Origin: Polyangium mundeleinium | GTDB taxonomy: Bacteria > Myxococcota_A > Polyangia > Polyangiales > Polyangiaceae | NCBI RefSeq assembly: GCF_028369105.1 | Contig: NZ_JAQNDO010000001.1 | Span: forward strand, 9,332,501 to 9,396,500 | Length of the DNA stretch: 64,000 bases | Reading direction: 5' to 3' | In this document: positions 6,015 through 45,985 of the stretch, piece by piece | Layout: each line of letters begins with the position of its first letter | Position numbering within the stretch: the stretch's first letter is position 1 | Translations under genes and position numbers: made by a program | Notes under the pieces: generated by a model | Seen by the model: the letters and a program-made list of their open reading frames with translations, nothing else | Databases searched by the model: none | What the model was told of the DNA's origin: nothing

Positions 6015-7480
6015 AGCTCCGCGCGCTCGCCCTGTGCACGCTCGCCGGGTGCCTGGCGGTCGCGTGCTCCAGCGATCCGCCGGCAGACACGACGACCGCC
6101 GCGGGTTCGACCGGCGCAGCGGGCGCAGGGGGCACGGCCGCGGGCACCGGCGGGGCTGGCGGGAGCGGCGGGAGCTCGACCGGGGAAGGCGGAGGCTCGA
6201 TTCCGGACGAGGAGGTCGTTCTCACGCTCGTGAGCCCCCTGCCCGCAATGGCGTTCGAGCGACGCCATGTGGACGTGGACGTCGCGTTCTCCGTGCCGAA
6301 AGGAGGCGCGACACTCCGGCTCACGCTCGGCGAGGCGATCACCGACGAGCAATCGATCGACGCCACGGTGACCACAGGAACGGCGCGGCTCCGGCTGCCA
6401 CGTGCGCGCGGCGCGAACCCGTTTGTCGTGACGATCGCCACAGCGTCGGGAAAAACGGCGACCGTGGAGGGAAATCTCCACGGCGGGCGCCTCGTGACCG
6501 CCTCCATCGACACGATGTTCGCCCTCCGGGACGGGACCCTCGTGCAATGGGGCGGCGGCGATCCGACGCCCGCCAAAAAGGACGCGCCCACCGCGCTCGT
6601 ATCCGTCGCCGAAAACGGAGATACGCTTTTCGCGCTCGACGCCGAAGGGCACGTGTTCAAGGCGCCCGCGGGACAGCCCGCCTTCGAGCCCGTGCCTGGG
6701 CTCGAGGACATCGCGGCAATCGCGCCCGGCGGAGGCCATGCCTTGTTCCTGCGCGCGGACGGTCGGGTCTTCGCCGCCGGGCTCAACAGCCGAGGCCAGC
6801 TCGGCGCGGGCGACACGGAGAGCCACCCGGGCGTCGTCGAGGTCCTCTCGCTCGACGGGATCGTCGCGATCGCCGCCTCCGACGACGCGTCATTCGCGGT
6901 CGACACGAGTGGCCTCGTGCACGCGTGGGGCTCGAACGACGAGGGGCAGCTCGGCCTCGGCGACGAGGACATCTCGCCCCACCCCGATCCGCTCATCATC
7001 CCGAACCTCGTGGACATCGTGGACGTGGCCGCCGGGCGGGACCATGTCCTCGCCTTGACCGCGGCCGGCGGGCTGTATGCCTGGGGGCTCGGATCGAGCG
7101 GCCAGCTCGGCGACGGGTCGGCCGGCATCCTGGCCTCGAAGCCGCAGCCCGTTCCCCTCGTGCTCCCCGGCCCCGCGGTCGCGCTCGGCGCCCGGGGAAA
7201 CACGAGCCATGTCGTGCTGGCGAGCGGCGAGCACCTCGTCTGGGGGCAAAACAGCCTCGCGCAACTCGGCGTGGGCGACACGAACATGCGGACCAAGCCG
7301 ACGCCCAGCCTGGTCGGCCACGTGCGCGCGATCTCCGCAGGCCTCACCGGCGGCGTGGTCGTGGACGCCAGCGGCGGCCTCCAGGCGTGGGGATCGAACA
7401 CGAGCGGGCAGCTCGGCCTCCCGCTGCCGCCCGAAGGCCCGGAACGATCGAGCGTGCCTGTCGTGGTGCCGTGGCCGTGA
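6011..7480 (+). CDS. RCC1-repeat beta-propeller lipoprotein, second gene of operon
   Basis: 489-aa lipoprotein with lipobox LAVAC (Cys19), a Gly/Ala/Thr linker and an N-terminal Ig-like region. A seven-bladed RCC1-type domain follows, of which the first two blades (around LVQWGGG and VFKAPAG) are degenerate. The later blades are clear: VFAAGLN, VHAWGSN, LYAWGLG, HLVWGQN and LQAWGSN. It has the same architecture as the preceding gene but is well diverged, so the duplication is old. Its ATG overlaps the upstream TGA (6011-6014), and its TGA overlaps the GTG of the di-heme gene, indicating one transcript with coupled translation. Function unknown. Confidence 0.84.
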   Translation: MKLRALALCTLAGCLAVACSSDPPADTTTAAGSTGAAGAGGTAAGTGGAGGSGGSSTGEGGGSIPDEEVVLTLVSPLPAMAFERRHVDVDVAFSVPKGGATLRLTLGEAITDEQSIDATVTTGTARLRLPRARGANPFVVTIATASGKTATVEGNLHGGRLVTASIDTMFALRDGTLVQWGGGDPTPAKKDAPTALVSVAENGDTLFALDAEGHVFKAPAGQPAFEPVPGLEDIAAIAPGGGHALFLRADGRVFAAGLNSRGQLGAGDTESHPGVVEVLSLDGIVAIAASDDASFAVDTSGLVHAWGSNDEGQLGLGDEDISPHPDPLIIPNLVDIVDVAAGRDHVLALTAAGGLYAWGLGSSGQLGDGSAGILASKPQPVPLVLPGPAVALGARGNTSHVVLASGEHLVWGQNSLAQLGVGDTNMRTKPTPSLVGHVRAISAGLTGGVVVDASGGLQAWGSNTSGQLGLPLPPEGPERSSVPVVVPWP

Positions 7481-8979
7481 GCCTCCGCGCGGCGCGACGG
7501 ATCGCACTCCTCGCCGTGCTCCCCCTTGGGGTGGCGTGCTCCGACGAAGCCCCCGCGGGCCCCGGCGGTGCGGGCGGTACCGGTGGCGCGGCTTCGGGCA
7601 CCGGCGGTGCGGGCGCGTCAGGCGGCGGACCTGGCGGCGGCGGACTCGGCGGCGGCGCGGGTGCAGGCGGCGCCATGCCGGCCACCTTCGAGCCGGGGGA
7701 AGAACGCCCCGGCGGCGACACGACGATGGATAAGCGCGACGAAAAAAGCTTCCTGCGGCCCGCGGCCAACCTCTCCCTGGAGCGCCTCGGGACCTTCGAG
7801 GCCGGGCTCGCGCTCTTCGACGTCGCCTGGACGGTCGGAGGCGAAGTCGACCGCGACGGCCTGGGTCCAACGTACGTCGGCACCTCCTGCCGGAGCTGCC
7901 ATTTCCGAGGCGGCCGAGGCGCGCCGCCGCCCCCCGGCCAGCCAATGACGTCGATGCTCGTGCGGCTGTCGGTACCCTCCGCGGACGGCGCCGCATTCGT
8001 CCCCGACCCTCGCTACGGCGATCAAATCCAGAACAAGGCCATCCCCGGGGTCCCGCCGGAAGGCTGGTTCTCCGTCGACTACGCAGCCAAAGCCGGCGCA
8101 TACGCCGACGGCACCTCGTACGAGCTGCTGGAGCCGACCTACACGGCCCACGATCTCGCATTCGGCCCGCTCGCCGAGGGCACGCGGTTCTCGCCGCGCG
8201 TGGCGCAGCCGATGATCGGGCTCGGCCTGCTCGCCGCCATCCGCGACGAAGACATCGAGGCGCTCGCCGATCCCGACGACAAAAACGGAGACGGAATCCG
8301 CGGCCGCAGAAACCACGTCTCCGTCGAGGGAAAGCTCTCACCCGGGCGGTTCGGCTGGAAAGCAAACGAGGTGGATCTCGCGCGACAAACCGCGGGGGCC
8401 TTCCTCGGGGACATCGGAATCACCTCCCCACTGCACCCGACCGACAACTGCCCGCCCATCCAGGCGGCCTGCGCCGCAGCCGCAGGCACGACGCTGGACA
8501 TCGACGCAGCTCGCTTCGACGCGATCGTCGTGCTCTCGCACCTCGTCGCCGTGCCCCACCGACCCGACGCCGCCGAGCCCGACGTGCTGCTAGGCAAGGC
8601 GCTCTTCTCGCAAGCCGGCTGCAGCGCGTGCCACGTCCCGTCCTTCGTCACCGGCCCACTCGCAGGTTTCCCCGAGGTCGAAGGGCAACACATCTACCCG
8701 TACACCGACCTCCTGCTCCACGACATGGGCGCAGGCCTCGCCGACGAACGCCCCGACCACGAAGCCGGAGGGCGCGACTTCCGGACCGCGCCACTCTGGG
8801 GCATTGGCATGACGAGCCTCGTCTCCGGTCACACGCGGCTCCTGCACGACGGACGCGCCCGAAACATCGAGGAAGCCATCCTCTGGCACGGCGGCGAAGC
8901 CGAAGCCGCGCGCGCGTCGTTTCGTGCGCTTTCTGGTGTGGAGAGGGCAGCGCTTCTGTGGTTCGTCAGCTCGCTCTGA
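7477..8979 (+). CDS. Di-heme oxidoreductase-like lipoprotein (DUF1111 family)
   Basis: 500-aa lipoprotein from a GTG start that overlaps the previous stop; lipobox LGVAC with Cys21, then a Gly-rich linker. Two c-type heme sites are visible, C138-RSC-H142 and C382-SAC-H386, spaced as in DUF1111/DHOR proteins (di-heme oxidoreductases related to bacterial cytochrome c peroxidases). Residues near the C-terminus (TAPLWGIG, LLHDGRARNIEEAILWHGGEA) are characteristic of the family. Known relatives often sit beside imelysin-type iron-regulated proteins; here the partners are two RCC1 lipoproteins. It probably acts at the outer membrane in iron or peroxide redox chemistry, which is inference. Confidence 0.86.
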   Translation: MSLRAARRIALLAVLPLGVACSDEAPAGPGGAGGTGGAASGTGGAGASGGGPGGGGLGGGAGAGGAMPATFEPGEERPGGDTTMDKRDEKSFLRPAANLSLERLGTFEAGLALFDVAWTVGGEVDRDGLGPTYVGTSCRSCHFRGGRGAPPPPGQPMTSMLVRLSVPSADGAAFVPDPRYGDQIQNKAIPGVPPEGWFSVDYAAKAGAYADGTSYELLEPTYTAHDLAFGPLAEGTRFSPRVAQPMIGLGLLAAIRDEDIEALADPDDKNGDGIRGRRNHVSVEGKLSPGRFGWKANEVDLARQTAGAFLGDIGITSPLHPTDNCPPIQAACAAAAGTTLDIDAARFDAIVVLSHLVAVPHRPDAAEPDVLLGKALFSQAGCSACHVPSFVTGPLAGFPEVEGQHIYPYTDLLLHDMGAGLADERPDHEAGGRDFRTAPLWGIGMTSLVSGHTRLLHDGRARNIEEAILWHGGEAEAARASFRALSGVERAALLWFVSSL

Positions 8980-8997
8980 GCAGCAGGGTGCGCCGCG

Positions 8998-9246
8998 CCG
9001 GGGTTTCACCCCGGACCCGACCAGGGGCTGTCCGCCCCTGGACCTGGACCAGGGCAGCCCTGGACCTCAGGTGCATCGACCGCGATGCGGTCGATGCAAA
9101 GGGGGCATGGTTTCACGTAGCCGCTGAGGCAGCAGCGCGATCGTTTGAGGTCAGATGAGGTGGAGATGGGCGCACCGCTATTCGTTTGGGTTCAAACGAA
9201 TAGCGGCGGCACGGCGGGAGAAGGCGTGGGGGGCAGCACCCCCCAC
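8998..9246. repeat. Cluster of six inverted repeats between convergent genes
   Basis: This 273-bp intergenic stretch (8980-9252) has no gene but six hairpins: CCGGGG/CCCCGG (8998-9014), CCAGGGGC/GCCCCTGG (9021-9041) and CCAGGGC/GCCCTGG (9049-9063). The others are a perfect 12-bp stem around TGCATCGACCGC (9072-9098), a perfect 14-bp stem around CCGCTATTCGTTTG (9175-9206), and GTGGGGGG/CCCCCCAC (9226-9246). Arms and loops were checked base by base. They resemble REP-like intergenic elements. None has a U-tract, so they are poor classical terminators, although the last may end the leftward gene. Confidence 0.75.
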
Positions 9247-9252
9247 CCAGGG

Positions 9253-11088
9253 TCAGGAGGCGCGGAGCGCGTCGAGCAGGTCGACGTCCGGAATCGCGAT
9301 CGGAAGCCGCGCCCGGATGACCGCCACGTCGTTGTCCTCGCACATCCGCGCCACGGCGAGGCCGTCATACAGCGCGATCGGCGCCGTCCCCGGCACAGAC
9401 GCCTCTTCCCGCGCGCCGGACAAGGTTTGTCCCGCCGTGAAGATCCATCCAACCGTGGCCGGCCCGTAGTGGTGGAGCGAGCCACGCAGCTCCGTCACCC
9501 GCTCGCGACCCACCTCACGGCCGTCGCGACGAATCACGATCGCCACCCGGATCTCGTCGTTGCCCATGCGCAAGACGCCCGAGAAATGCGACTCGCCGCC
9601 AGGCGCACCCGCGCGGCGCACCGCGCGAAGCTGCCCAACGCCCATGCGCTCGAGCGCGAGGACACAAACCTCGATGAACGCATGCCCGGGCAGCTCGCCG
9701 AGCTTCCGAGCGAACGCGCGACGAGCCCCATCGCGATAGCGCTCCACCGCAGCAAGGGCCTCCTGCTCCAGGCGCGCAAGATCGCCGCCGAGCAGCCAGT
9801 CCGTCAGGGCCACGCGGCCACCCGCGAAGCGGAAGCGCGGCCGCTGCCCCGCGGCAATCCGCCGGGCATTGTCGGCGCGCACCGCAGCAGCCACCTGCGA
9901 CTGCACGAGCTGCGCATCCCCCGAGAGGCGGCCACGTCGCTGCGCCGTCTCGGCGATCTGCCGCAAAGACACAGCGCCCGCGTTGCGATCGAACGTCGAC
10001 AGGATCGCGGCCACCGCATCGGCAAGCTCACGACCCGCGAGATCATCGAGCGCCGGATGACCTTCCCCGGGGGTCAACTCGATGACCTGCGGGCCCCGGT
10101 AAACAGCCTCGGTCGGCGCCACATCGCGCACGATCTCGCGGTCACGCTCGCGGCCCACGTCGCGGTCACGGTCACGGCCCACGTCGCGCTCGCGCTCGCG
10201 GCCCACGTCGCGGTCGCGGCCCACGTCGCGATCGCGTCCGTCGCGACGAACCTCGAACGCGGGCGTTGCCGTGTACGAAGGCAGCCCGCCTCCGCTCGTC
10301 GGCAGGGCCTGCGCCTCGCCGTTCGTGCTGCGACCGCGGCGACGGCGGCGACGACGCCGACGGCCTTCCCCTCCAGCATCACCAGCGCCCCCACCGGCGC
10401 GGTCGTCCCCACCACCGAGGATCGGCTGATCGTCGTCCTCTTCCTCGTCGAACATCTCGGCGGCGCCAGCAGCCGCTTCCGCGCGCATCACGTCGTCGGG
10501 GCCGGCGGGGCCGGCGTCGATATCTTCCGCCTCGACGGAGCGCGTGAACGACGGCGCCGACGGGCGAGGCATGGGCGGAGCGAGTTTGGCCGCGGGAGCC
10601 GGGGACACGAGCGTCTCGTCGTCCTCGTCGGCTTCTTCCTCGACGGCCGCGACCTCTGCGGGAGCGGCGGGGGCGGCCACGATCTCCTCGGGCGCCTCGT
10701 CCGTCTCGGCCTCCGCGGCCTCGGTCTCGCCTTCTGCCTCTTCTTCAGCAGCCTCCGGGGCGCTGACCTCTTCCTCGACCTCGTGCCGGGCGGCCTTGGC
10801 AGGCTCTTGCTTGCCGCCGCGCTTGCCCTTCTTGCCATCGAGACCCGCGCGAAGCGTCTTCTCGTCCCACTCCCGCAGCGCAAACACGCCGGGCTTCACC
10901 CGGATGAGCGGCGTGTCGGACGAGTCCTTCTTGAGCATCGCGGCGAGCCGGGCGCCCATCGTGACCTCGGGGCTCTTCCCGACGTGGCTGAGCAAGTTCT
11001 TCTCTATCGCGATATCGGTGATCTCTTTGTAGTGGAGCGGCCTGCCGACGAGGCGAAGCACCTCGGCCGCTGCATCGGTAAACGTCAT
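9253..11088 (-). CDS. HARE-HTH protein with C-terminal Mrr-like domain
   Basis: 611 aa. Residues 1-75 form a HARE-HTH domain (AAAEVLRLVGRPLHYKEITD, then a basic helix and IRVKPGVFALREW), a winged helix linked to DNA modification and transcription systems. It is followed by a Lys-rich stretch, a long acidic Glu/Asp/Ala region (about 85-190), a run of ten arginines (about 265), and an Arg/Asp/Glu repeat of the VGRDRDVGRERERDVGRDRD type. The last 150 residues resemble the Mrr fold (AFIEVCVLALERMGVGQL, then VTELRGSLHHYG and GWIFTAGQTLSGA). However, the usual D and Q/E-x-K catalytic residues read as GGESHFSG and VIRR, so nuclease activity may be lost. It is probably a DNA-binding regulator. Confidence 0.75.
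   Translation of the reverse strand: MTFTDAAAEVLRLVGRPLHYKEITDIAIEKNLLSHVGKSPEVTMGARLAAMLKKDSSDTPLIRVKPGVFALREWDEKTLRAGLDGKKGKRGGKQEPAKAARHEVEEEVSAPEAAEEEAEGETEAAEAETDEAPEEIVAAPAAPAEVAAVEEEADEDDETLVSPAPAAKLAPPMPRPSAPSFTRSVEAEDIDAGPAGPDDVMRAEAAAGAAEMFDEEEDDDQPILGGGDDRAGGGAGDAGGEGRRRRRRRRRGRSTNGEAQALPTSGGGLPSYTATPAFEVRRDGRDRDVGRDRDVGRERERDVGRDRDRDVGRERDREIVRDVAPTEAVYRGPQVIELTPGEGHPALDDLAGRELADAVAAILSTFDRNAGAVSLRQIAETAQRRGRLSGDAQLVQSQVAAAVRADNARRIAAGQRPRFRFAGGRVALTDWLLGGDLARLEQEALAAVERYRDGARRAFARKLGELPGHAFIEVCVLALERMGVGQLRAVRRAGAPGGESHFSGVLRMGNDEIRVAIVIRRDGREVGRERVTELRGSLHHYGPATVGWIFTAGQTLSGAREEASVPGTAPIALYDGLAVARMCEDNDVAVIRARLPIAIPDVDLLDALRAS
10126..10248 (-). repeat. In-gene repeat encoding an Arg-Asp-Arg-Asp-Val-Gly array
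   Basis: Alternating units of roughly 18-24 bp encode DRDVGR/ERDVGR peptides inside the HARE-HTH protein. The highly charged mixed Arg-Asp/Glu composition resembles RD-repeat segments of RNA-binding proteins; here it lies just after the poly-arginine run. The units are imperfect copies. Confidence 0.75.
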
Positions 11089-11373
11089 CTTTTGTCCAGC
11101 CCTTCGGGCGCTCCCATCACTTGGGCGCTCCTCTTGGTGCGCGTCGCACGTGCCGCCCTTGTTCCGACGCCACGCGCTGGGCCTCTGCCCGCCACGACCG
11201 GGAAGCGCACATTCGCTCCCACTCGGCCGGACACGCTACTGAACAGCCGCATAACACGGGACGATCCACGAGTCAACCACGGCAGCCCGACCAACCGCCC
11301 CCCTTCGCACAAACACGACGCTACTGTTCGTCCTGGACGGACTTCATCCCAACGAACCCGCGTCGCCTGCCCG

Positions 11374-12921
11374 CTAGGGCCGGTACGTCTTCGGGTTCGC
11401 GAGCTTGCTCGGCAACCAGCGGAAAAAGTCGAGGATCGTGGACGAATCGAAGATCCCGTCGGACGAGTCCCACACGATGAACTCCACCGTGGCGATCTCA
11501 CCGGGCACGATCGGCGCCTCCGTGGTCAGCCATCCCGTGCTGCCGCCGATCGAGCTCGGTGTGTTGTTGCAGGGCGAGTCGAAGTCGTCGTAGCCCGTGC
11601 CCGCGAGCTCGGATTTGCCCCCCGAGCAGAAATTGAACCCCGGCGTCCCGAAGCACCCCGTAGGACCCGCCACGCAACGATCGAAGAAATTCAGGTTCAC
11701 GGAGCCGGGCGTCCCCTGGCCGTCGAACACCACGTTGCGGTTGTTCGCGATTCCCGGCGCGTTCGTCTTCAAAAGCACCACCCACAAGTCGTTGAACGGC
11801 GAGCAAGCATACTCCGGGTACTCCGACGACCAGTACGCATGATCAAACGCAAAACTGTTCGCATTTGTGGGCGTACGCACCTGAATCTTGAGATTGACCG
11901 GGTTGAACGCGGTGGACGCGAAGGGGACCGGGCATCCTGATTTGTTGGTCGGGAAGCCGGGGGGCGTGGCCGACTGCGTGCCGGTGTCCGTGCCGCCCTG
12001 CGGCGTGCCGAACTGGAAGTACGGCTGGCTCGGCGTGGCCGCGAGCCCGGTCGAGAGGAAGACGAAGTTCTGGTTCGCCCGCGGGCCGAGCACGTTGCCC
12101 ATCGACGTGATGATCGCGTGCGACTGCGGGAACGGCGTGCCCGTGCCGTCCGCGAGCCGCAGCTCCGCCGTGATCACGCCCCAGCGCTTGTTCGCGCCGG
12201 TCGCATTCAGCGTCGTCGTCTGGCAAAGCTCGATCGACTTCGCGTAGTCGAGCGGATCCTGCGAGGTGTACTGCAGGCCCGCGCTACACGCGGTGTTCGG
12301 GTTGTCGATCCCGCCGTTGCAGTCGTCGTCCTTCCCGTTCGGGAAATCGAACGCGCCCGGGTTCACCAGCGGATCGGCGTCGTTGCAGTCCCCGTCGCAA
12401 ACCGAGTAGCCATCCCCGTCGGCATCCGGGCAGGGACCGTCCGGGATCACGTCTTGCGGGACGTCTTGCGGGACGTCTTGCGGAACGTCTTGCGGAACGT
12501 CGACCGGGACATCCACCGGCACGTCTTCTGGGACGTCTTCGGGCACGTCGAGCGGCACGTCGAGCGGCACGTCGACAGGAACATCCTCGGGCACGTCGAG
12601 CGGCACGTCGAGCGGGACATCCACCGGCACGTCCTCGATCACATCGATCGGGACATCCTCGACCACGTCGAGCGGCGCGTCCTCGACGATCTCCTCCACC
12701 ACGTCGAAGACGACGATGTCCGGCGACACGTCGGGCGAGACGTCCGGCGACACGTCGGGCTGCGCGTCGTCGCCGGGCGCGTCAGGGCCGGCGTCGTCCT
12801 CGTCCTCGTCGAGGAGGTCGTCGTCCTCGATGTCGGTGCGCGCGCCGCAGCCCGGTCCGAGCCAGACGGCCGGCGTGGCGAGCGCAACAAGAACGAGCCC
12901 CCAGCGAAACGAAAAGCGCAC
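11374..12921 (-). CDS. Choice-of-anchor L / MopE-motif lipoprotein with DVP repeats
   Basis: 515-aa lipoprotein from a GTG start at 12921 preceded by GGGAGG at a spacing of 8. The lipobox LGPGC gives Cys25. Next come an Asp-rich stretch, then about 80 residues of Asp-Val-Pro tetrapeptide-type repeats (VPLDVPLDVPEDVPVDVP and variants). A MopE-type metal-binding motif follows (CPDADGDGYSVCDGDCNDAD, then NGKDDDCNGGIDN). The C-terminal 300 residues match the choice-of-anchor L pattern (Cys-rich, with AYWSSEYPEYACSPFNDLWVVLL and VEFIVWDSSDGIFDSS). The domain is common in myxobacterial surface proteins of unknown role. The Asp-rich modules suggest Ca2+ or other metal binding. Confidence 0.82.
   Translation of the reverse strand: MRFSFRWGLVLVALATPAVWLGPGCGARTDIEDDDLLDEDEDDAGPDAPGDDAQPDVSPDVSPDVSPDIVVFDVVEEIVEDAPLDVVEDVPIDVIEDVPVDVPLDVPLDVPEDVPVDVPLDVPLDVPEDVPEDVPVDVPVDVPQDVPQDVPQDVPQDVIPDGPCPDADGDGYSVCDGDCNDADPLVNPGAFDFPNGKDDDCNGGIDNPNTACSAGLQYTSQDPLDYAKSIELCQTTTLNATGANKRWGVITAELRLADGTGTPFPQSHAIITSMGNVLGPRANQNFVFLSTGLAATPSQPYFQFGTPQGGTDTGTQSATPPGFPTNKSGCPVPFASTAFNPVNLKIQVRTPTNANSFAFDHAYWSSEYPEYACSPFNDLWVVLLKTNAPGIANNRNVVFDGQGTPGSVNLNFFDRCVAGPTGCFGTPGFNFCSGGKSELAGTGYDDFDSPCNNTPSSIGGSTGWLTTEAPIVPGEIATVEFIVWDSSDGIFDSSTILDFFRWLPSKLANPKTYRP
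12445..12690 (-). repeat. Asp-Val-Pro repeat region
   Basis: Tandem 12-bp-type units encode DVPx tetrapeptides (LDVP, EDVP, VDVP, QDVP) in the choice-of-anchor L lipoprotein. Several neighbouring copies are identical (for example four QDVP in a row near 12450-12500), consistent with ongoing expansion and contraction. Confidence 0.8.
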
Positions 12922-35176: not shown

Positions 35177-35866
35177 TCAGAGGCAGGCGGAGATGTCGAG
35201 CTCGCCGATGGCGAACGGCCGCTCGCTCTGATCGTAGACGTTCGCTTCGTTGGTCGACGTCACGCTCCAGCCGTAGGACAGGATTTCGCCCGTCACCTCG
35301 TCCGAGTAAATTCGCAGGAAGGCCGTGCCGGGGATGTTCGCCGTGAAGACGCCGCCGACGCGACGGCTGTCGGGGTACGACGCATTCTGGCCGTGCTCGC
35401 TGCCCGTCGAGTCGGCGATCGGCAGCGCCCACTGCTTCTGCCCCGTGCGGTACGGCGTGTAGTACCCGGCCGGCGGCGTGATGTCGATCGGCTCGCCGGT
35501 GATCACGGCGGCATGGCCGGTGTACGACCCGGTGGCGTTGATCGCGAAGATCTGGCCCGCGTCGATGTCCGCGATGTTCGTGATCTCGACGAAGTTGTGG
35601 CCCGCGTCGATGTCTTCGTACCACTGCGCGGCGCTCAGGGTCGAGAGTTCGAAGCAGTACAGCCACTGGCTGTTCGTCCAGGCGAGAGCGTTCTTGACCG
35701 CCTTGGTGACGAAGCTGCCGCCATTGCCCGTGTTCGTTGCCGAGGTCACGAGGGCATTCGCCGCGGTGGCGATGGAAGCGTTGAGCACGGGATCGGCATT
35801 CGCGTCCGAGGGGAAGCAGAGAGCCGTCGCGACCGCAGCAGCACCAAAAAGACCGAGCTTATTCAT
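35177..35866 (-). CDS. Secreted protein, paralogue A of a tandem pair
   Basis: 229 aa with signal peptide MNKLGLFGAAAVATALCFPS (cleavage after ANA). The mature protein contains GNGGSFVTKAVKNAL, AINATGSYTGHAAVITGEPI, DITPPAGYYTPYRTGQKQWA, DSTGSEHGQNASYPDSRR and QSERPFAIGEL, all shared almost verbatim with the neighbour. I do not recognise the family, though the GHAAVI and PDSRR segments hint at a Cys- or His-centred NlpC/amidase-like fold (speculative). Start ATG 35866 matches the paralogue's start; a GTG two codons earlier is unnecessary. Confidence 0.82.
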   Translation of the reverse strand: MNKLGLFGAAAVATALCFPSDANADPVLNASIATAANALVTSATNTGNGGSFVTKAVKNALAWTNSQWLYCFELSTLSAAQWYEDIDAGHNFVEITNIADIDAGQIFAINATGSYTGHAAVITGEPIDITPPAGYYTPYRTGQKQWALPIADSTGSEHGQNASYPDSRRVGGVFTANIPGTAFLRIYSDEVTGEILSYGWSVTSTNEANVYDQSERPFAIGELDISACL

Positions 35867-35928
35867 GTTCACACCTCAGGAGGAACGACCGCGGTGGTCG
35901 TCAGGAAAGGGAACGATGGCCAACCGGC

Positions 35929-36271: not shown

Positions 36272-36949
36272 TCAGGGGCTGACGGTGAGCTCGCCGATGG
36301 CGAACGGCCGCTCGCTCTGATCGAAGACGTTCGCGTCGTTGGTCGACGTCACGCTCCACGAGTAGGAGAGGATCTCGCCCGTCGTCGCGTCCGAGTAAAC
36401 CCGCAGGTACGCCGTGCCGGGGACGTTCGCCGCGAAGCCGCTGGAGCTGCGACGGCTGTCGGGGTACGACGCATTCTGGCCGTGCTCGCTGCCCGTCGAG
36501 TCGGCAATCGGCAGCGCCCACTGCTTCGTGCCTGTGACGTACGGCGTGTAGAAGCCGCTCGGCGGCGTGATGTCGATCGGCTCGCCGATGATCACGGCGG
36601 CATGGCCGGTGTACGACCCGGTGGCGTTGATCGCGAAGATCTGGCCCGCGTCGACGTCGTTGATGTTGTCGACCTCGACGAGGTTGGTGCCCGCGGTGAT
36701 GGCTTCGTACCATCGCGCGGCGCTCAGGGTCGAGTAGGAGAAGTAGTACAGCCACTGGCTGCTCGACCAGCCGAGAGCGTCCTTGACCGCCTTGGTGACG
36801 AAGCTGCCGCCATTGCCCGTGTTCGTCCCCGCGACCACGAGGTCCAGCGCCGCGCCCGAAACATCGCCATCACCGGTGGCCCGCGCGTCCGAGGAGAAGC
36901 AGAGAGCCGTCGCGACCGCAGCAGCACCGAAGAGACCGAGCTTATTCAT
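36272..36949 (-). CDS. Secreted protein, paralogue B of a tandem pair
   Basis: 225 aa with signal peptide MNKLGLFGAAAVATALCFSS (cleavage after ARA). It is about 70 percent identical by eye to paralogue A over the mature region, including GSFVTKAVKDALGW, GQIFAINATGSYTGHAAVI, EPIDITPPSGFYTPY and QSERPFAIGEL. Divergence is concentrated in the first 30 mature residues. Function unknown. GGAG lies 9 bases before the ATG. The upstream region is duplicated along with the gene, so the two copies are probably expressed together. Confidence 0.82.
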   Translation of the reverse strand: MNKLGLFGAAAVATALCFSSDARATGDGDVSGAALDLVVAGTNTGNGGSFVTKAVKDALGWSSSQWLYYFSYSTLSAARWYEAITAGTNLVEVDNINDVDAGQIFAINATGSYTGHAAVIIGEPIDITPPSGFYTPYVTGTKQWALPIADSTGSEHGQNASYPDSRRSSSGFAANVPGTAYLRVYSDATTGEILSYSWSVTSTNDANVFDQSERPFAIGELTVSP

Positions 36950-37012
36950 GTGCGCACTCCAGGAAGAAACGACCGGCTTGGTCGTTATGACAGTGGAACT
37001 ATGAACAACCGA

Positions 37013-37080
37013 AGAGTGGGCATCTTCCAAATCGTGGGATGCGCACTCGATAGGCGGCTCGTGTATACCTCATCGTCAAG
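37013..37080 (-). promoter_or_regulatory. Duplicated upstream block of paralogue B
   Basis: Second copy of the block at 35929-35996, with TGCGCACTCGATAGGCGG at 37040-37057, 91 bp before ATG 36949. The remainder of this 489-bp gap (37081-37438) contains no supportable gene; short frames there have no family features or ribosome sites. Confidence 0.5.
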
Positions 37081-38299: not shown

Positions 38300-38501
38300 G
38301 CGGCGCCCACCATACCCTCGCCGGTCGAACCCGGAAAGCCCGTGTCCAGGTCGACGCCTCCCTGCATCGTCCGCCATCCCGAAAATGTTTCGCCTGCACC
38401 AAATTGCCGTGCGCATGCTGCACGAGCAGGATCGGCGCGAATCGGGCAGTGGCTGCACAGGCCTTCGATTCGTCCGGCGCTCCTCTGCAAGGATACGGGC
38501 G

Positions 38502-38517
38502 TGGCCTCCGTTTTGCC
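38502..38517 (+). promoter_or_regulatory. Possible sigma-54 promoter of the ACP-methyltransferase-FAAL operon
   Basis: TGGCCTCCGTTTTGCC has GG-N10-GC spacing with intact TGGC and TTGC cores, but the -24 box lacks the usual AC after TGGC. Predicted transcription would begin near 38527, leaving a 30-base leader containing the ribosome site and GTG start. Confidence 0.35.
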
Positions 38518-38546
38518 AGGGCGCCGTTCTCGTATCTTTCAGCACC

Positions 38547-38552
38547 AAGGAG
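38547..38552 (+). promoter_or_regulatory. Ribosome binding site fixing the GTG start of the ACP gene
   Basis: AAGGAG lies 6 bases before GTG 38559, where the acyl carrier protein sequence begins. The frame is open further upstream but without ACP homology. Confidence 0.75.
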
Positions 38553-38558
38553 CTTCTC

Positions 38559-38852
38559 GTGGCCACCCATCTTTCCGTTCCTGAAGCCATCGCCAATGAC
38601 GTCCGCCGGATCATCGCGGAGACCCTGCGTCTGCCCATGGAGCAGGTCTCGCTCGACGCGCGGCTCGACGAGGCGCGCCTCGGCATCGATTCCCTCGGGC
38701 TCATCAAGCTGAATGTCGCGCTCGAAGAGGCCTTCGACATCACGCTGCCCGATTTCACCACGCCCGAGCAGCCGCACATCCGCTCCGTCGGCGACGTGGC
38801 CGCGCTCGTGGCCGACAAGGTCTCCGCCCAGGCGAACGGAGGTGCACGATGA
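38559..38852 (+). CDS. Acyl carrier protein
   Basis: 97-aa four-helix acyl carrier protein. The phosphopantetheine attachment Ser is S45 in LGIDSLGLIKLNVALEEAF. The VRRIIAETLRLPMEQVSLDA helix 1 and the acidic helix 2-3 are typical. The D-S-L is preceded by GI rather than the G-A or L-A of fatty-acid synthase AcpP, which fits a specialised ACP rather than the housekeeping one. Its stop overlaps the ATG of the methyltransferase (ATGA, 38849-38852). Together with the FAAL two genes downstream, it probably receives an activated fatty acid directly. Confidence 0.87.
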   Translation: MATHLSVPEAIANDVRRIIAETLRLPMEQVSLDARLDEARLGIDSLGLIKLNVALEEAFDITLPDFTTPEQPHIRSVGDVAALVADKVSAQANGGAR

Positions 38853-39805
38853 TCTCCCCCGCGCACACGCGCCCCGAGCGCGAGGCCATGGAGCGTTCGC
38901 CCGCGGAGCAACGCGAGCACGAGCGCCGCGTCGTGGCCGAGCATTACCAGCACGACGTCGAGATCTTCTCGATGGTCCTCGATAGTCGCCTTGCCTATGC
39001 GACGGGCGTCTTCGTGCGCCCCGACGAGGACCTGGAGACCGCCCAGGCGCGCAAATTCGCTCGCATCCAGGCCAAGCTCGACATCCAGCCCGGCGAGCGT
39101 GTGCTCGACGTCGGCTGCGGCTGGGGCAGCAATCTCTTGTATCTCGCCGAGCATACGAAAGGAGAGTTCTTCGGGATCACCCTCAGCGAGCGGCAACGCG
39201 AGGAGGCGCTCCGCCGCGCGCGCCTCGCCGGCGTCGCGGATCGCGTGCACATCGACGTCCGGCACGTGGAGGATCTCGCCCTCGAGCCCGCCTCGTTCGA
39301 CGTGGTGCTCTTCAGCGGCAGCATCGTCCACATGCACAACCGCGAGGAGATTCATCACGCGGTGGCGCGGCTCCTCCGTCCCTCGGGGCGCCTGCTCATC
39401 TCGGATTGTTATTATCCGGCCGAGCACCGCGGCGATCGCGAGAGCACGGCGACGGATTACATCTTCGTCGAGGCGCTCGGGTATTGCCGCCTCGTCCACC
39501 TCAGCGAGGAGCTCGGCTTCATCGAGCGCGCGGGGCTCGACATCTCTCACGTCGAGGACCTCACGAGCTCCTACGCGCTCACGCTGGAGCGCTGGATCGA
39601 CAACGTCCGCAAGAACCGCCGCCGCATCGAGGCGATCTCCCCGGGTTTTTCGCGGCTCTTGCAGCAATACATGACCGTCGCCAAGCTCTCGTTCGCGCGG
39701 CGCACGGCGCTCGAATACATGATCCTGGCGACACGAGGACGGCCGCGGGTCGAGGTCGCGTCGTTCCCCATCGCCCCGCCCGTACGCGAAACGGGGGAGC
39801 GATGA
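38849..39805 (+). CDS. SAM-dependent methyltransferase, cyclopropane-fatty-acid-synthase-like
   Basis: 318 aa. An N-terminal helix (EHERRVVAEHYQHDVEIFSM) precedes the CFA-synthase-type Rossmann domain with SAM motif VLDVGCGWGSNLLYLAEH, GITLSERQREEALRRA, DVRHVEDL and SFDVVLFSGSIVHM. The GITLSE and C-G-W-G signatures are those of CFA synthases and mycolic-acid methyltransferases. With an ACP on one side and a fatty acyl-AMP ligase on the other, the substrate is probably a fatty acyl-ACP or a lipid derived from it. It overlaps both neighbours by ATGA. Confidence 0.86.
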   Translation: MISPAHTRPEREAMERSPAEQREHERRVVAEHYQHDVEIFSMVLDSRLAYATGVFVRPDEDLETAQARKFARIQAKLDIQPGERVLDVGCGWGSNLLYLAEHTKGEFFGITLSERQREEALRRARLAGVADRVHIDVRHVEDLALEPASFDVVLFSGSIVHMHNREEIHHAVARLLRPSGRLLISDCYYPAEHRGDRESTATDYIFVEALGYCRLVHLSEELGFIERAGLDISHVEDLTSSYALTLERWIDNVRKNRRRIEAISPGFSRLLQQYMTVAKLSFARRTALEYMILATRGRPRVEVASFPIAPPVRETGER

Positions 39806-41457
39806 GCACGAGGACGATCGCCGGGCTGCTCCGCCGCCGCGCCGAATCGATGAGCGAAGATGTCGCGATTCGATTCAAGGAGGAGGCGGGTTTCGAGGCG
39901 TGGACCTGGCTCCGATTCTGGGAAGAAGCGGTACGCGTCGCAGCCGGGCTCCGGGAAGCCGGTCTGCGCCCGGGCGACCGCGTGCTCGTGCTCGTGCCCG
40001 AGGTCAAGGCCGCGGTCACGACGCTCTTCGGCATCTGGTCGCTCGGCGCGGTGCCCATTCCCATCGGGCTCCCGTTCCGGCTGACCGATATCGAGCGGTT
40101 TCTGGAGCAGCTCCGCACAACGGCGGAAAAACTCTCCGCGCGGGCGCTCGTCACCTCGCGCGCGCTCTCGACGTTCGCAGGCGCGCCGGGGGCGATCCGG
40201 GTCCTTTGCGCGGAGGAGCTTTCGATGGCGCCGCACGGGTTCTCACCCGATCCCGACGCGGCTCCCGGCCCGGCGTTGATCCAGCTCACGAGCGGGAGCA
40301 CGGGGCACCCGCGCGGCGTCGTCCTCGGGCACGAGCGGCTGATGCTGCACATGGCGTGCATGAGCGAGGCGCTGCCGAGCCACGCGGAATCGGTGGCCGT
40401 CTCGTGGCTGCCGTTGCATCACGACATGGGCCTCATCGGCGGGCTGCTTTTTCCTTTTTACAATGGGTTCGTCGCGAACATGCTGGCGCCGCAGGATTTC
40501 CGGGCGCGGCCACTCGCCTGGCTGGAGTCGATGTCCTCGCTGCGGGCGACGATCTGCGCGGCGCCGCCCTCGGCCTACGCGCTCGTCCTGCGGCTCGCGC
40601 GGCGCGCGGCGGAGGCGGGGCTCGACCTTCGGCCCTGGGAATGCGCGATGATCGGCGCGGAGCCCATTTCCCCCGGGCTCTTGCAGCGTTTCGCCGAAGC
40701 CTTCCGGCCTGTGGGCTTCCGCGCCGAGGCCTTTTTCCCGGTGTACGGGCTCGCCGAGGCCACCGTCGCCGTGACCTTCCCGAAGCTGCTCGCGCCGTCA
40801 CGCTTCGCCGTGGTGGATCGCGAATCGCTGGAGCGGACGGGGCGCGCCGTCCCGACCGAGCCAGGTGCGCACGCGCTCGAGCTCACCTGCGTGGGACGAT
40901 CGATTCCGCAAACGGACGTGCGCATCACGGGCAAGGACGGTGAGGTCCTGCCCGAGCGGCAGGTGGGCGAAATCGAGGTCCGCGCGCCGACCCTGATGCA
41001 CGAATATCTCGACGATCCGACGGCGACCGCGGCGGCTTTCCGGGACAGGTATCTGCGCACCGGGGACCTCGGGTATCTCGACGCGGGCGAGCTTTTCGTC
41101 ACGGGGCGGAAAAAGGACCTCATCATCAAGGGCGGGCACAACTTGCTTCCTTCGGTGATCGAGGAGATCGTTTCCGAGGTCGAGGACGTGCGGAGCGGGT
41201 GCGTCGTGGCAGTCGGCGTGCGGGCGGAGGCGGACGAGACCGAGCTCGTGTACGTGATTGCGGAGACGAAGCTCGATCAAGGCGCCCACGACGCGCTCGG
41301 CGAACGGGTGCGCGCCGCGCTCCTCGCGCGCGGAATCGGGGTCGATCGGGTGATGTTCCTGGCCCCCGGGAGCTTGCCGAAGACCACGAGCGGCAAGCTG
41401 CGGAGGCGCGCCGTCGCGGAGGCGCTGGCGCAAGGACGCTCGCTCGAATCAACCTGA
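39802..41457 (+). CDS. Fatty acyl-AMP ligase (FAAL-type adenylating enzyme)
   Basis: 551-aa ANL-superfamily enzyme. Core motifs are A3 LTSGSTGHPRGVVLGH, SWLPLHHDMGLIGG, A5 FFPVYGLAEATVAVTFP, YLRTGDLGYLDAGELFVTGR, KKDLIIKGGHNLLPSVIEEI, and a C-terminal Lys in PKTTSGKLRRRAV. The HHDMGLIGG and YGLAEATV patterns are characteristic of FAALs, which adenylate fatty acids and pass them to an ACP instead of CoA. The ACP gene in the same operon is the obvious acceptor. Its stop overlaps the end of the convergent hydrolase gene by 9 bp. Confidence 0.87.
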   Translation: MSTRTIAGLLRRRAESMSEDVAIRFKEEAGFEAWTWLRFWEEAVRVAAGLREAGLRPGDRVLVLVPEVKAAVTTLFGIWSLGAVPIPIGLPFRLTDIERFLEQLRTTAEKLSARALVTSRALSTFAGAPGAIRVLCAEELSMAPHGFSPDPDAAPGPALIQLTSGSTGHPRGVVLGHERLMLHMACMSEALPSHAESVAVSWLPLHHDMGLIGGLLFPFYNGFVANMLAPQDFRARPLAWLESMSSLRATICAAPPSAYALVLRLARRAAEAGLDLRPWECAMIGAEPISPGLLQRFAEAFRPVGFRAEAFFPVYGLAEATVAVTFPKLLAPSRFAVVDRESLERTGRAVPTEPGAHALELTCVGRSIPQTDVRITGKDGEVLPERQVGEIEVRAPTLMHEYLDDPTATAAAFRDRYLRTGDLGYLDAGELFVTGRKKDLIIKGGHNLLPSVIEEIVSEVEDVRSGCVVAVGVRAEADETELVYVIAETKLDQGAHDALGERVRAALLARGIGVDRVMFLAPGSLPKTTSGKLRRRAVAEALAQGRSLEST

Positions 41458-42075
41458 GCGACGCACGACGAAATCGGAAACCCTCTCCATCATCGTTTCC
41501 AGGTGCTCCGCGAGGGAATGGTTTGCCCTGGGGATCACCTCCAGCGTGACCGGGCCGGGCAGCTCGCGCGCGAACGCGCGGATCACGTCGACGTCGCCCC
41601 ATTCGTCGTGTTCGCCCTGGACCAGGAGCAGCGGCTTTCGTGACTCGCGGAGATAGGAGAAATCGTAGACGTTGATGGGAATCCCGATGCCGATCAGGGC
41701 CTTCACGCGTGGATCCTCCGCGCCGGCGCGCAGGCCGACCCACCCGCCGAAGGAGTAGCCGGCGACGAGGAGGTGGGGGTGCTCGGGGGCGAGGAAATCG
41801 ATCGCCGCGCGGGCATCGTCCACCTCGCCCGCGCCGCCGTCGTAATGGCCCTCGCTCGCCTCGACGCCGCGAAAATGGAAGCGCAGGACCGTGGCCCCCG
41901 CGGCGTGGAGGGCGCGCGTGGCCCGGGAAACGACCTTGTTGTAGAGGGTGCCGCCGGAGTGCGGGTGAGGATGGCAAACCACGGCCGCCGCCGCAGGGCT
42001 CGGGTGGCGCCGGAGCACGGCCTCGATGCGGCCGGCCGGGCCGGGAAGGAAAAAGGTGCCATCGGGGGGGCGCAT
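41449..42075 (-). CDS. Alpha/beta hydrolase (dienelactone-hydrolase / KANL3-like)
   Basis: 208-aa alpha/beta hydrolase. It has AAAVVCHPHPHSGGTLYNKV (the oxyanion HPHP motif of the family), RFHFRGVEASEGHYDGG, nucleophile Ser in LLVAGYSFGGWVGL (GYSFGG), acid Asp in LLLVQGEHDEW, and His in IPRANHSL. No signal peptide. Substrate unknown. ATG 42075 was chosen as the first Met before conserved sequence. It is convergent with the FAAL gene (tail overlap) and divergent from the glutaryl-CoA dehydrogenase. Confidence 0.84.
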   Translation of the reverse strand: MRPPDGTFFLPGPAGRIEAVLRRHPSPAAAAVVCHPHPHSGGTLYNKVVSRATRALHAAGATVLRFHFRGVEASEGHYDGGAGEVDDARAAIDFLAPEHPHLLVAGYSFGGWVGLRAGAEDPRVKALIGIGIPINVYDFSYLRESRKPLLLVQGEHDEWGDVDVIRAFARELPGPVTLEVIPRANHSLAEHLETMMERVSDFVVRRSG

Positions 42076-43357: not shown

Positions 43358-43423
43358 TATCTCGCCCAAAAAGAATGCGCTCGGCAGCCGACCTCTGGCA
43401 TGATGGAATGCGAGGTCCTTGCC

Positions 43424-45985
43424 ATGTCCACGCACTCTCTTCTTCCGCCCCGGCGTAGCATCGTCGGCCGGGCTGGCCTTGCCGCTTTGCTCGGCGTCGC
43501 GGCCCTCGCCGCCCTCCCCTCCGGGACGGCCCTCGCCGCCCCCGTATTACGAAAACAGTTCGACGGCCACGGCGATTTTCGGCTGATCGGCAATACGCTC
43601 GGGCACGAGTGCGGCAACGTCGGGATCGCGCCCCTCGTCGGCGATGTGCTCTGCGACGGAAGCGGCGACGGCGCTCCCGATATCCACTGGCGCGCGGACG
43701 CGATCGCCCCCGGCACGGCCTCCGCCTCCGAGAGCGTCGCCGTCGCCGACCAGCGCTCGACCGCCGTGCTCACCCTGCCGGCCGGCGCGACCGTGACATA
43801 CGCACGCCTCTACTGGGGCGCGCGCTGGGACAACAATGGCACGGCCGACACGAGCGTGACGCTCGAGCGCCCCGGCGCGTTCTCGCAGCCGCTCATCGCG
43901 GACAATAGCCTCGTGAGCACGAACGTCTCGGGCGGCGTAACCGAGTATTTCTACCAGTCGACCGTGGACGTGACCGCGCTCGTGGCGGCCCAGGGCGCAG
44001 GCGCGTACCGGCTCTCCGGCGTCGACTCGATCAGCTTCGTCGACCTCGTGCAAGACCGGCTCTTCGCCGGATGGTGGCTCGTCGTGTTTTACGAGCTGCC
44101 CTCGGAAAAACCGCGCCACCTCGCACTGCACGACGGCTTCGATCGGATCGGTGTCACGCCGCAGACGCTCGCGCTCTCGGGCTTCACCGTGCCGGGCGCG
44201 GCGATCGACGGCAAGCTCGCCGTCATCGCCTACGAGGGCGACGTGGCGAGCTCCGCCGGTCAGAACGACTACCTGCGCTTCGGCACGGGCGCGCTCAGCG
44301 CCGCGAACGACATCATCGACGCGCAGAATCCCGTAGGAAACTTCTTCAACGCCTCGCGATCGTGGCTCGGCGCGGCCGTCTCGACGGACGGTGATCTGCC
44401 GAAGCTGACGGGCGGCCCCGGCAGCATGAGCGGCATCGATCTCGACGCGGTCGACATCTCCACGAAGATCACGCCCGGCCAGAAGACCGCGAACGTGCAG
44501 GTCGGCAATGCTTCGGGCGCAAACGATATCTTCTGGATCGGCGGGTTCGTCTCGTCGATCACCACGCTCCTGCCCGATTTCTCGACCTCGACGAAGACCG
44601 CGTCGGACGCGAACGCCGGCAAGCTCGTCGTCGGCGACGAGCTCGAATATTCGATCGCCGTCACGAACAGCGGCAACGACACCTCGACCCACACGCGCCT
44701 CGACGACACGTTGCCCCTCGGCGTCTCGTTCGTCCCCGGTTCGCTCCAGATCGTGCAAGGTGCGAACGCGGGCCCGAAGACAGAACAAGCGGGTGACGAT
44801 CAAGGCGAGTACACGGCCGCGACGCGCACGGTCACGGTGCGGCTCGGCACGGGCGCGAACGCAATCACGGGCGGCGAGATGGCCCCCGGCGAGACGGCGC
44901 TCGTGCGCTTCCGCGTGAAGATCGAGCCGAACGCGCCCGCGAACATCTCGAACCAGGCGACGATCAGCGGCGAAGGCAAGCAAGGCGCGCCGTCCACGTC
45001 CTTCCCGACCGACGGGAACGGCGTGTCGCCGGGCAACCCGCCCACGGTCGTCGTGATCGAGGAGTGCACGACGAACGCCGATTGCGGCGGCGCGACGCCG
45101 ATCTGCGACACGACGAGTGACCCGAACACATGCGTGGGCTGCATCGAGGACAGCCAGTGCCCCGGCGACAAACCCGTCTGCGACACGACGCAGAAACAGT
45201 GCATCTGCGTGAGCTCGGGCATGGAGACGTGCGACGGGAAGGACAACGACTGCGACGGGAGCGTCGACGAAGGTTGCAACGACACCGACGGTGACGGGCT
45301 GCCCGACGACGTCGAGGTGGTCCTCGGCACGGATCCGAATGACGCCGACACCGACAACGACGGCGTGCCCGACGGGCAAGAGCCGCTACCAGGCGCCGAC
45401 ACCGACGGCGACGGGCTCATCAACGCGCTCGATCCGGACAGCGATGGCGACGGGATCTTCGACGGCACGGAGATGGGCTACGACTGCAGCGGTCCCGGGA
45501 CGAACCCCGCCGCCGGCAATTGCGTGCCCGACGCGGACATGGGCGCGACGACGACGAATCCGCTCGACCCCGACACGGACAACGGCGGCATCCCCGACGG
45601 CGAGGAGGACAAGGACAAGGACGGCGCCGTGGATCCGGGCGAAGGAGACCCGAACGATCCGAGCGACGACACGGTCACCTCGGGCTCCGGCGGCATGGGC
45701 GGCGCAGGGGGCGCCGGCGGCTCCGGCGGAATGGGCGGCGCAGGGGGCGCCGGCGGCGCCGGCGGAATGGGCGGCGCAGGGGGCTCCGCGGGCGCCGGGG
45801 GCGCAGGTGGAAGCGGCGGACAAGGCGGAGCCGCAGGCAGCGGCGGAGAAGCGCCTCCGAGCGGCTTCGTGATCACCGGCGGCGCGTGCTCGACCAGCAA
45901 GGCGCCGTCTTCGACGGACCCCCTCGCCTGGGCCCTCGGCCTCGCCGGCGCGGCGCTCGCGCTGCGGAGGCGTCGGAGCGGCTGA
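43424..45985 (+). CDS. DUF11/TSP3-repeat surface protein with MYXO-CTERM-like tail
   Basis: 853 aa. A signal peptide (GRAGLAALLGVAALAALPSG, cleaved near ALA) precedes a large N-terminal region of unknown fold (about residues 40-385). A DUF11 Ig-like module follows (KLVVGDELEYSIAVTNSGND to NISNQATISGEG), then a Cys-rich MopE-like motif (ETCDGKDNDCDGSVDEGC). Thrombospondin-3-type calcium repeats (DTDGDGLPDD, DADTDNDGVPDGQE, DTDGDGLINALDPDSDGDGI) lead to a Gly/Ala/Met linker and a tail with Cys, a hydrophobic helix and RRRR, like MYXO-CTERM sorting signals. It is predicted to be anchored at the surface. ATG 43400 is an alternative start. Confidence 0.83.
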   Translation: MSTHSLLPPRRSIVGRAGLAALLGVAALAALPSGTALAAPVLRKQFDGHGDFRLIGNTLGHECGNVGIAPLVGDVLCDGSGDGAPDIHWRADAIAPGTASASESVAVADQRSTAVLTLPAGATVTYARLYWGARWDNNGTADTSVTLERPGAFSQPLIADNSLVSTNVSGGVTEYFYQSTVDVTALVAAQGAGAYRLSGVDSISFVDLVQDRLFAGWWLVVFYELPSEKPRHLALHDGFDRIGVTPQTLALSGFTVPGAAIDGKLAVIAYEGDVASSAGQNDYLRFGTGALSAANDIIDAQNPVGNFFNASRSWLGAAVSTDGDLPKLTGGPGSMSGIDLDAVDISTKITPGQKTANVQVGNASGANDIFWIGGFVSSITTLLPDFSTSTKTASDANAGKLVVGDELEYSIAVTNSGNDTSTHTRLDDTLPLGVSFVPGSLQIVQGANAGPKTEQAGDDQGEYTAATRTVTVRLGTGANAITGGEMAPGETALVRFRVKIEPNAPANISNQATISGEGKQGAPSTSFPTDGNGVSPGNPPTVVVIEECTTNADCGGATPICDTTSDPNTCVGCIEDSQCPGDKPVCDTTQKQCICVSSGMETCDGKDNDCDGSVDEGCNDTDGDGLPDDVEVVLGTDPNDADTDNDGVPDGQEPLPGADTDGDGLINALDPDSDGDGIFDGTEMGYDCSGPGTNPAAGNCVPDADMGATTTNPLDPDTDNGGIPDGEEDKDKDGAVDPGEGDPNDPSDDTVTSGSGGMGGAGGAGGSGGMGGAGGAGGAGGMGGAGGSAGAGGAGGSGGQGGAAGSGGEAPPSGFVITGGACSTSKAPSSTDPLAWALGLAGAALALRRRRSG
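45701..45772 (+). repeat. 36-bp tandem repeat in Gly-rich linker
   Basis: Two adjacent 36-bp units (starting GGCGCAGGGGGCGCCGGCGG at 45701 and 45737) differ at one codon, and a partial third follows. They encode the Gly-Ala-Gly-Met linker before the C-terminal sorting region. Confidence 0.8.

Follow-up and report, generated by a model that had tools for sequence, protein, structure and literature searches.

An acyl carrier protein, a methyltransferase and a fatty acyl-AMP ligase recur as a three-gene unit in Polyangium mundeleinium and distant bacteria: a possible stand-alone route to an unusual fatty acid

Fatty acyl-AMP ligases (FAALs) are usually understood to load the assembly lines of polyketides and peptides. 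The question raised by a locus of Polyangium mundeleinium is what such a ligase does when it is encoded together with only an acyl carrier protein (ACP) and an S-adenosylmethionine (SAM)-dependent methyltransferase (MT). The locus lies in a stretch of 64,000 nucleotides, here called the window (assembly GCF_028369105.1, contig NZ_JAQNDO010000001.1, positions 9,332,501 to 9,396,500), of a 13.25 Mb genome in two contigs. A first-pass annotation, made from the letters of the window alone, had proposed a self-contained pathway that activates, carries and methylates or cyclopropanates a fatty acid without a polyketide synthase (PKS) or nonribosomal peptide synthetase (NRPS). The analysis supports a real self-contained ACP-MT-FAAL unit that is kept as an operon, and the chemistry tentatively proposed for it is methylation of an ACP-bound chain without ring closure.

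The three genes lie on the forward strand and were borne out, with the motifs named for them, by the open reading frames, the junctions and Pfam. The ACP (38559-38852, 97 aa, PF00550 with 9.2e-10) begins with GTG closely behind AAGGAG and carries its attachment site Ser45 within GIDSL, a residue that is invariant in all 12 aligned orthologues. The genome holds one match to the phosphopantetheinyl transferase family PF01648. The MT (38849-39805, 318 aa, PF02353 with 1.3e-39) contains the motif VLDVGCGWG, and the FAAL (39802-41457, 551 aa, PF00501 with 4.2e-55) contains LTSGSTG, the C-terminal catalytic Lys and, close to its C-terminus, PKTTSGK. Both junctions are ATGA overlaps. All three proteins exceeded the Pfam cut-offs of their families (PP-binding, CMAS and AMP-binding, respectively), while no NCBIfam model among those listed (the best 25 each for MT and FAAL) reached its curated cut-off for any of them.

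The solved FAAL sequences nearest to the ligase are 3pbk (1.5e-70, the best match) and 3kxw. Its insertion region at about residues 325-360 aligned in one stretch with 3pbk, 3kxw and 7r7g as well as with three homologues from the same genome (L003-L005), and was missing in five AMP-binding homologues (L007, L008 and L010-L012); rows L002 and L006, which were in a wrong reading frame, were left out of this comparison, and the same-genome homologues are AMP-binding matches without finer typing. Judged from its sequence, the enzyme belongs to the FAALs by AMP-binding fold, motifs and an insertion that is absent from CoA ligases.

The trio was then followed through other genomes. With the MT as query, 12 out of 183 genomes of the order gave matches at E 1e-30 or better: its own genome, four of the five other members of the genus (the fifth, G152, gave no match at this threshold), one genome of another genus (G130, perhaps Minicystis) and six of a genus that includes Sorangium (g47; locus L042 and the S. 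cellulosum So ceGT47 record L051 give the same matches). The FAAL as query at E 1e-115 returned the identical 12 genomes. A contig scan, from which the best 80 of 322 relatives were kept, added five Nannocystis records and one acidobacterial metagenome-assembled genome (MAG), and a search of the phylum in a sample of 377 genomes added G396. This gave 19 distinct loci in the own genus, the Sorangium group, Nannocystis, two further Myxococcota lineages and the acidobacterial MAG. ACP, MT and FAAL stood together in 19 of the 19 loci recovered through the MT, with 4-nt overlaps between ACP and MT in 18 and between MT and FAAL in all 19. The arrangement is therefore not due to chance, and the adjacency on which the first-pass annotation had staked its proposal holds throughout. 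In one Sorangium-group genome (G164, locus L041, about 9936-11714), the FAAL gene is frameshifted or contains a sequencing error.

This tight coupling also bears on the idea that FAAL and ACP merely recycle fatty acids while the MT acts on another substrate and not on an ACP-bound chain. Acyl-ACP synthetases can indeed salvage fatty acids, but the MT gene sits between ACP and FAAL and overlaps both in nearly all loci, and the MT has no lipid-binding N-terminal domain. Recycling is the least probable of the explanations considered here.

Could the trio instead deliver starter units to a PKS or NRPS whose genes lie elsewhere in the genome? Priming an assembly line is the usual role of FAAL-ACP pairs (PMC11837247; this and all other articles are cited for their accessible parts), and the jamABC cassette has it too (PMC4356899). 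However, the genes flanking the trio vary between genera, and neither a ketosynthase (queried with one FabF-like sequence) nor an adenylating enzyme besides the trio's own FAAL was matched at any of the 19 loci, in stretches of 14 to 64 kb with flanks of about 6 to 9 kb in most and with neighbourhoods based on simple open reading frame calls. As a control, the ketosynthase query recovered itself in a second cassette of the same genome, described below. A starter-unit function is accordingly improbable, and the absence of PKS and NRPS genes claimed earlier stands for the stretches covered. The genes 5' of the trio in the Sorangium group, whose functions were read by eye, lie on the same strand and are not common to the other lineages.

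The 19 trio MTs form a single clade with a support of 100/100 on a long stem (3.33 changes per column). Within it, the Sorangium-group MTs branch with the acidobacterial sequence (98/82 in this tree, 92/89 in a tree of 37 rows) and not with the genus of the window. Since Sorangium and the window genus share one family, while the Sorangium MTs pair with the acidobacterial one, horizontal movement of the trio is likely.

Evidence on the chemistry comes from the active site of the MT. Its membership in the CMAS/cyclopropane fatty acid (CFA) synthase family PF02353 is given by both score and fold: the CMAS domain scored 136.6 bits (cut-off 27) versus 63.9 bits for the next domain, and the predicted structure (pLDDT 86.7, pTM 0.87) had its best match in CmaA1 and its kin, the mycolate cyclopropane synthases, with Z 35.6 and a root mean square deviation of 2.0 over 273 residues. 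Mycolate enzymes use carrier-bound chains. In E. coli CFA synthase (CFAS), Glu239, His266 and Tyr317 bind a bicarbonate that deprotonates the intermediate, and the activity falls when bicarbonate is removed or a ligand is mutated (PMC11387697). The aligned positions of the MT are Val160 for Glu, Ser185 for His and Tyr242, the only ligand kept. Thr52 stands at the Cys of the YSCA motif and Cys187 at the Ile two residues past the His, positions that we take to be of importance in CFA synthases. These residues are identical in all 12 aligned orthologues and in all 19 trio loci (L157 was typed via its sub-stretch L129). In contrast, Cys, Glu, His, Ile and Tyr are all present in each of the 18 nearest relatives outside the trio (L053-L070, from the best 80 of 322), which are 29-37% identical and come mostly from Solirubrobacterales MAGs. 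The ligand set of a cyclopropane synthase is thus incomplete in the trio MTs.

Ordinary cyclopropanation of an unsaturated acyl-ACP would agree with the CMAS family, the closest fold and the retained Tyr242. The replacement of two of the three bicarbonate ligands in every trio MT, a change of the kind that lowers CFAS activity, nevertheless makes it unlikely, and it was dropped as the leading explanation. Of the two outcomes offered by the first-pass annotation, methylation or cyclopropanation, the second is therefore weakened.

Another possibility is methylation of a heteroatom: the MT would O- or N-methylate a hydroxyl, an amino group or a second carboxyl on the ACP-bound chain and give, for example, a methoxy fatty acid. 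RebM and MitM are the enzymes concerned here, and we take both to be heteroatom methyltransferases. Such a reaction keeps some probability because the loops SIVHMHNR and LISDCY of the MT align with those of MitM (SIIHMPDR, LTDFF) and partly with those of RebM (SLHHMPDR, IADF). The phmmer scores are also close, with 80.7 bits for CFA synthase versus 74.5 bits for RebM. On the other hand, CMAS is by far the top Pfam domain, a desaturase is coupled to the trio in one locus, and the 37-row tree (nine trio MTs, midpoint root) grouped the trio with the CMAS side and separated it at 99/95 from the RebM-like rows, a group that was chosen by the analyst from residue typing and contains neither RebM nor MitM. 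Taken together, heteroatom methylation is less probable than the explanation favoured below, but it is its strongest competitor and clearly ahead of cyclopropanation.

The explanation that we favour, as the most probable of those considered but at somewhat less than even odds, is a stand-alone cassette in which the ACP receives a fatty acid from the FAAL and the MT methylates the carried chain without ring closure. It draws on the observed gene content, order and coupling, on conservation, clade structure and the replaced catalytic residues, and on the recurring partners. The FAAL would adenylate a free fatty acid and transfer it to the phosphopantetheine arm of the ACP. The MT would then move the methyl group of SAM onto the acyl-ACP chain, with a C=C bond introduced by a desaturase as its most likely target. 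A double bond is favoured as methyl acceptor because of the desaturase in the acidobacterial locus and of a Scytonema locus that combines FAAL, desaturase, ACP and three CMAS proteins. With only one left of the three ligands that hold the cyclopropanating bicarbonate, no ring is expected, and the cation would instead yield a methyl-branched alkene, a methylene or a hydroxy acid. Finally, the product might be released by the alpha/beta hydrolase that some members of the family encode next to the trio, or be taken up by an acyltransferase.

Several observations weigh against this proposal. The loops shared with MitM were mentioned above, and the comparison of predicted folds does not separate C- from heteroatom methyltransferases, with Z values of 31.7 for E. 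coli CFAS, 30.9 for MitM and 28.9 for RebM. The alpha/beta hydrolase is missing next to the trio in 12 of the 19 loci (a weak match of 60 aa in L048 was not counted). The desaturase was considered as a general neighbour of the trio and rejected, as it occurs in the acidobacterial locus L052 only (1 of 19 loci). In that same locus the ACP-MT pair is duplicated, which may be an assembly artefact.

The partner genes differ from locus to locus. In the window, an alpha/beta hydrolase of about 208 aa (41449-42075, reverse strand, start inferred; PF20408, PF12146) is encoded tail-to-tail with the FAAL. It adjoins the trio in seven of the 19 loci: tail-to-tail in five loci of the same genus, on the same strand 13 nt past the FAAL in L038, and overlapping the FAAL stop by GTGA in Nannocystis exedens (L049). 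Within the taxonomic order, homologues with more than 50% identity occurred in trio genomes only. The wider family is common, with matches in 56 of 183 genomes at E 1e-8 and relatives of 28-43% identity in genomes without the trio. The hydrolase was therefore rejected as an obligate partner, and the conserved fourth gene that had been suggested for a synteny check was found in part of the family and not in the rest. The enzyme of the window is a possible release enzyme. In L052 (4283-10280), the order is hydrolase, ACP, MT, ACP, MT, FAAL and desaturase; the hydrolase is a different alpha/beta hydrolase, an ATGA overlap at its stop joins the FAAL gene to that of the DesA-like desaturase, and the tandem ACP-MT copies share 99.2% identity over 971 nt. 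The trio of G396 has a hydrolase-like gene on its upstream side and a convergent PF01553 acyltransferase gene downstream.

A sigma-54 promoter about 40 bp before the GTG had also been proposed. A sigma-54-like element TGGC-N7-TTGC is present at 38502-38516 on the forward strand, 42 nt from the ACP start, and five of five congeners have the same GG and GC. However, the pattern is no more frequent in the window than by chance (three matches versus 1.58 expected, with at least three in 22 of 100 shuffles), and the 15 columns of the element rank 69 of 265 for conservation among congeners. It was not found within 250 nt upstream at any of the 14 other trio loci (L046 and L052 were scanned from a non-authentic ACP start). 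The element is thus present, but stays an unproven candidate. Upstream of it, a forward-strand stretch at about 38380-38470 is well conserved in the five congeners and contains two TGCTGCAC-like words; it could be an activator site.

Further from the trio, two similar adjoining genes on the reverse strand (35177-35872 and 36272-37030) encode secreted-looking proteins (MNKLGLFGAAAVATALCF...) and are kept in congeners. The gene at 43400-45985 on the forward strand, found in five loci of the genus, encodes a large protein that by eye looks secreted, carries Asp-rich repeats and ends in a tail rich in Gly. The second cassette of the genome (L045, G000:C1:3210713-3230000, about 6920-11075, reverse strand) encodes a FAAL, a CMAS methyltransferase, an ACP and a FabF-like ketosynthase in this order. 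Its MT is the only other profile-spanning PF02353 match in the genome; it kept the Cys, has Asp for Glu and Gln for His, and groups with CMAS proteins of Scytonema, Nocardia and Streptomyces, two of which are also encoded near FAAL-like genes.

The trio is kept by itself in distant bacteria, and its MT seems to have lost the means for cyclopropane chemistry, which suggests a small free-standing route to unusual fatty acids. The trio would also show how the chemistry of the CMAS fold changes upon an altered bicarbonate site. In its full extent, the interpretation would be that Myxococcota and Acidobacteriota have a horizontally mobile lipid pathway not described before: an MT derived from CMAS, with an incomplete bicarbonate site, would methylate a FAAL-loaded acyl-ACP, and the free unusual fatty acid that results would serve as a signal or envelope lipid; as a whole, this is doubtful. 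The genera reported to be without the VEPE/AEPE/TG-1 iso-lipid signal cluster include the trio carriers Nannocystis, Sorangium and Polyangium (PMC12766979). That the trio stands in for this cluster is only a hypothesis.

A literature search, which covered titles and the beginnings of abstracts with most subscription journals outside it, found no paper on an ACP-MT-FAAL trio. The accessible main text of a FAAL review does not contain 'cyclopropan' and mentions a methyltransferase once, for desmamides (PMC11837247). With the CFA and mycolate cyclopropane synthases, the trio MT shares family, fold, SAM motif and the Tyr of the bicarbonate site, but the Glu and His ligands are replaced and it forms a separate deep clade. 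Unlike the CFA synthases, it has no lipid-binding N-terminal domain, an absence common to the stand-alone mycolate enzymes (PMC11387697). AmxMT1 of anammox bacteria is likewise a class I SAM methyltransferase with a CFA-synthase-like annotation, for which ACP binding was shown and a branched lipid proposed; it differs in sitting in a type II fatty acid synthesis cluster without a FAAL trio and in resembling PKS C-methyltransferases (PMC9821293). Its structure 7v6h matched the trio MT weakly (E 1e-6). Imidacins, PKS lipids of myxobacteria, contain a cyclopropane derived from SAM and do not stem from this trio (PMC11301661). The locus of Scytonema sp. RU_4_4 (L081) also brings together FAAL, ACP and three CMAS proteins, plus a desaturase. 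However, this locus also encodes another FAAL and, downstream, a large protein that looks NRPS-like by eye, and the CMAS protein typed from it has retained Cys and Glu and belongs to another clade than the trio MTs. The closest functional precedent is jamABC, the tri-gene cassette of jamaicamide biosynthesis, in which an acyl-ACP synthetase (FAAL), an ACP and one tailoring enzyme alter the loaded chain before it is handed on (PMC4356899, PMC11837247). There, a desaturase/acetylenase does the tailoring and a PKS is primed with the product, whereas the trio has a methyltransferase and no PKS nearby; the adjacent FAAL, ACP and single tailoring gene of such a cassette are present in all 19 loci.

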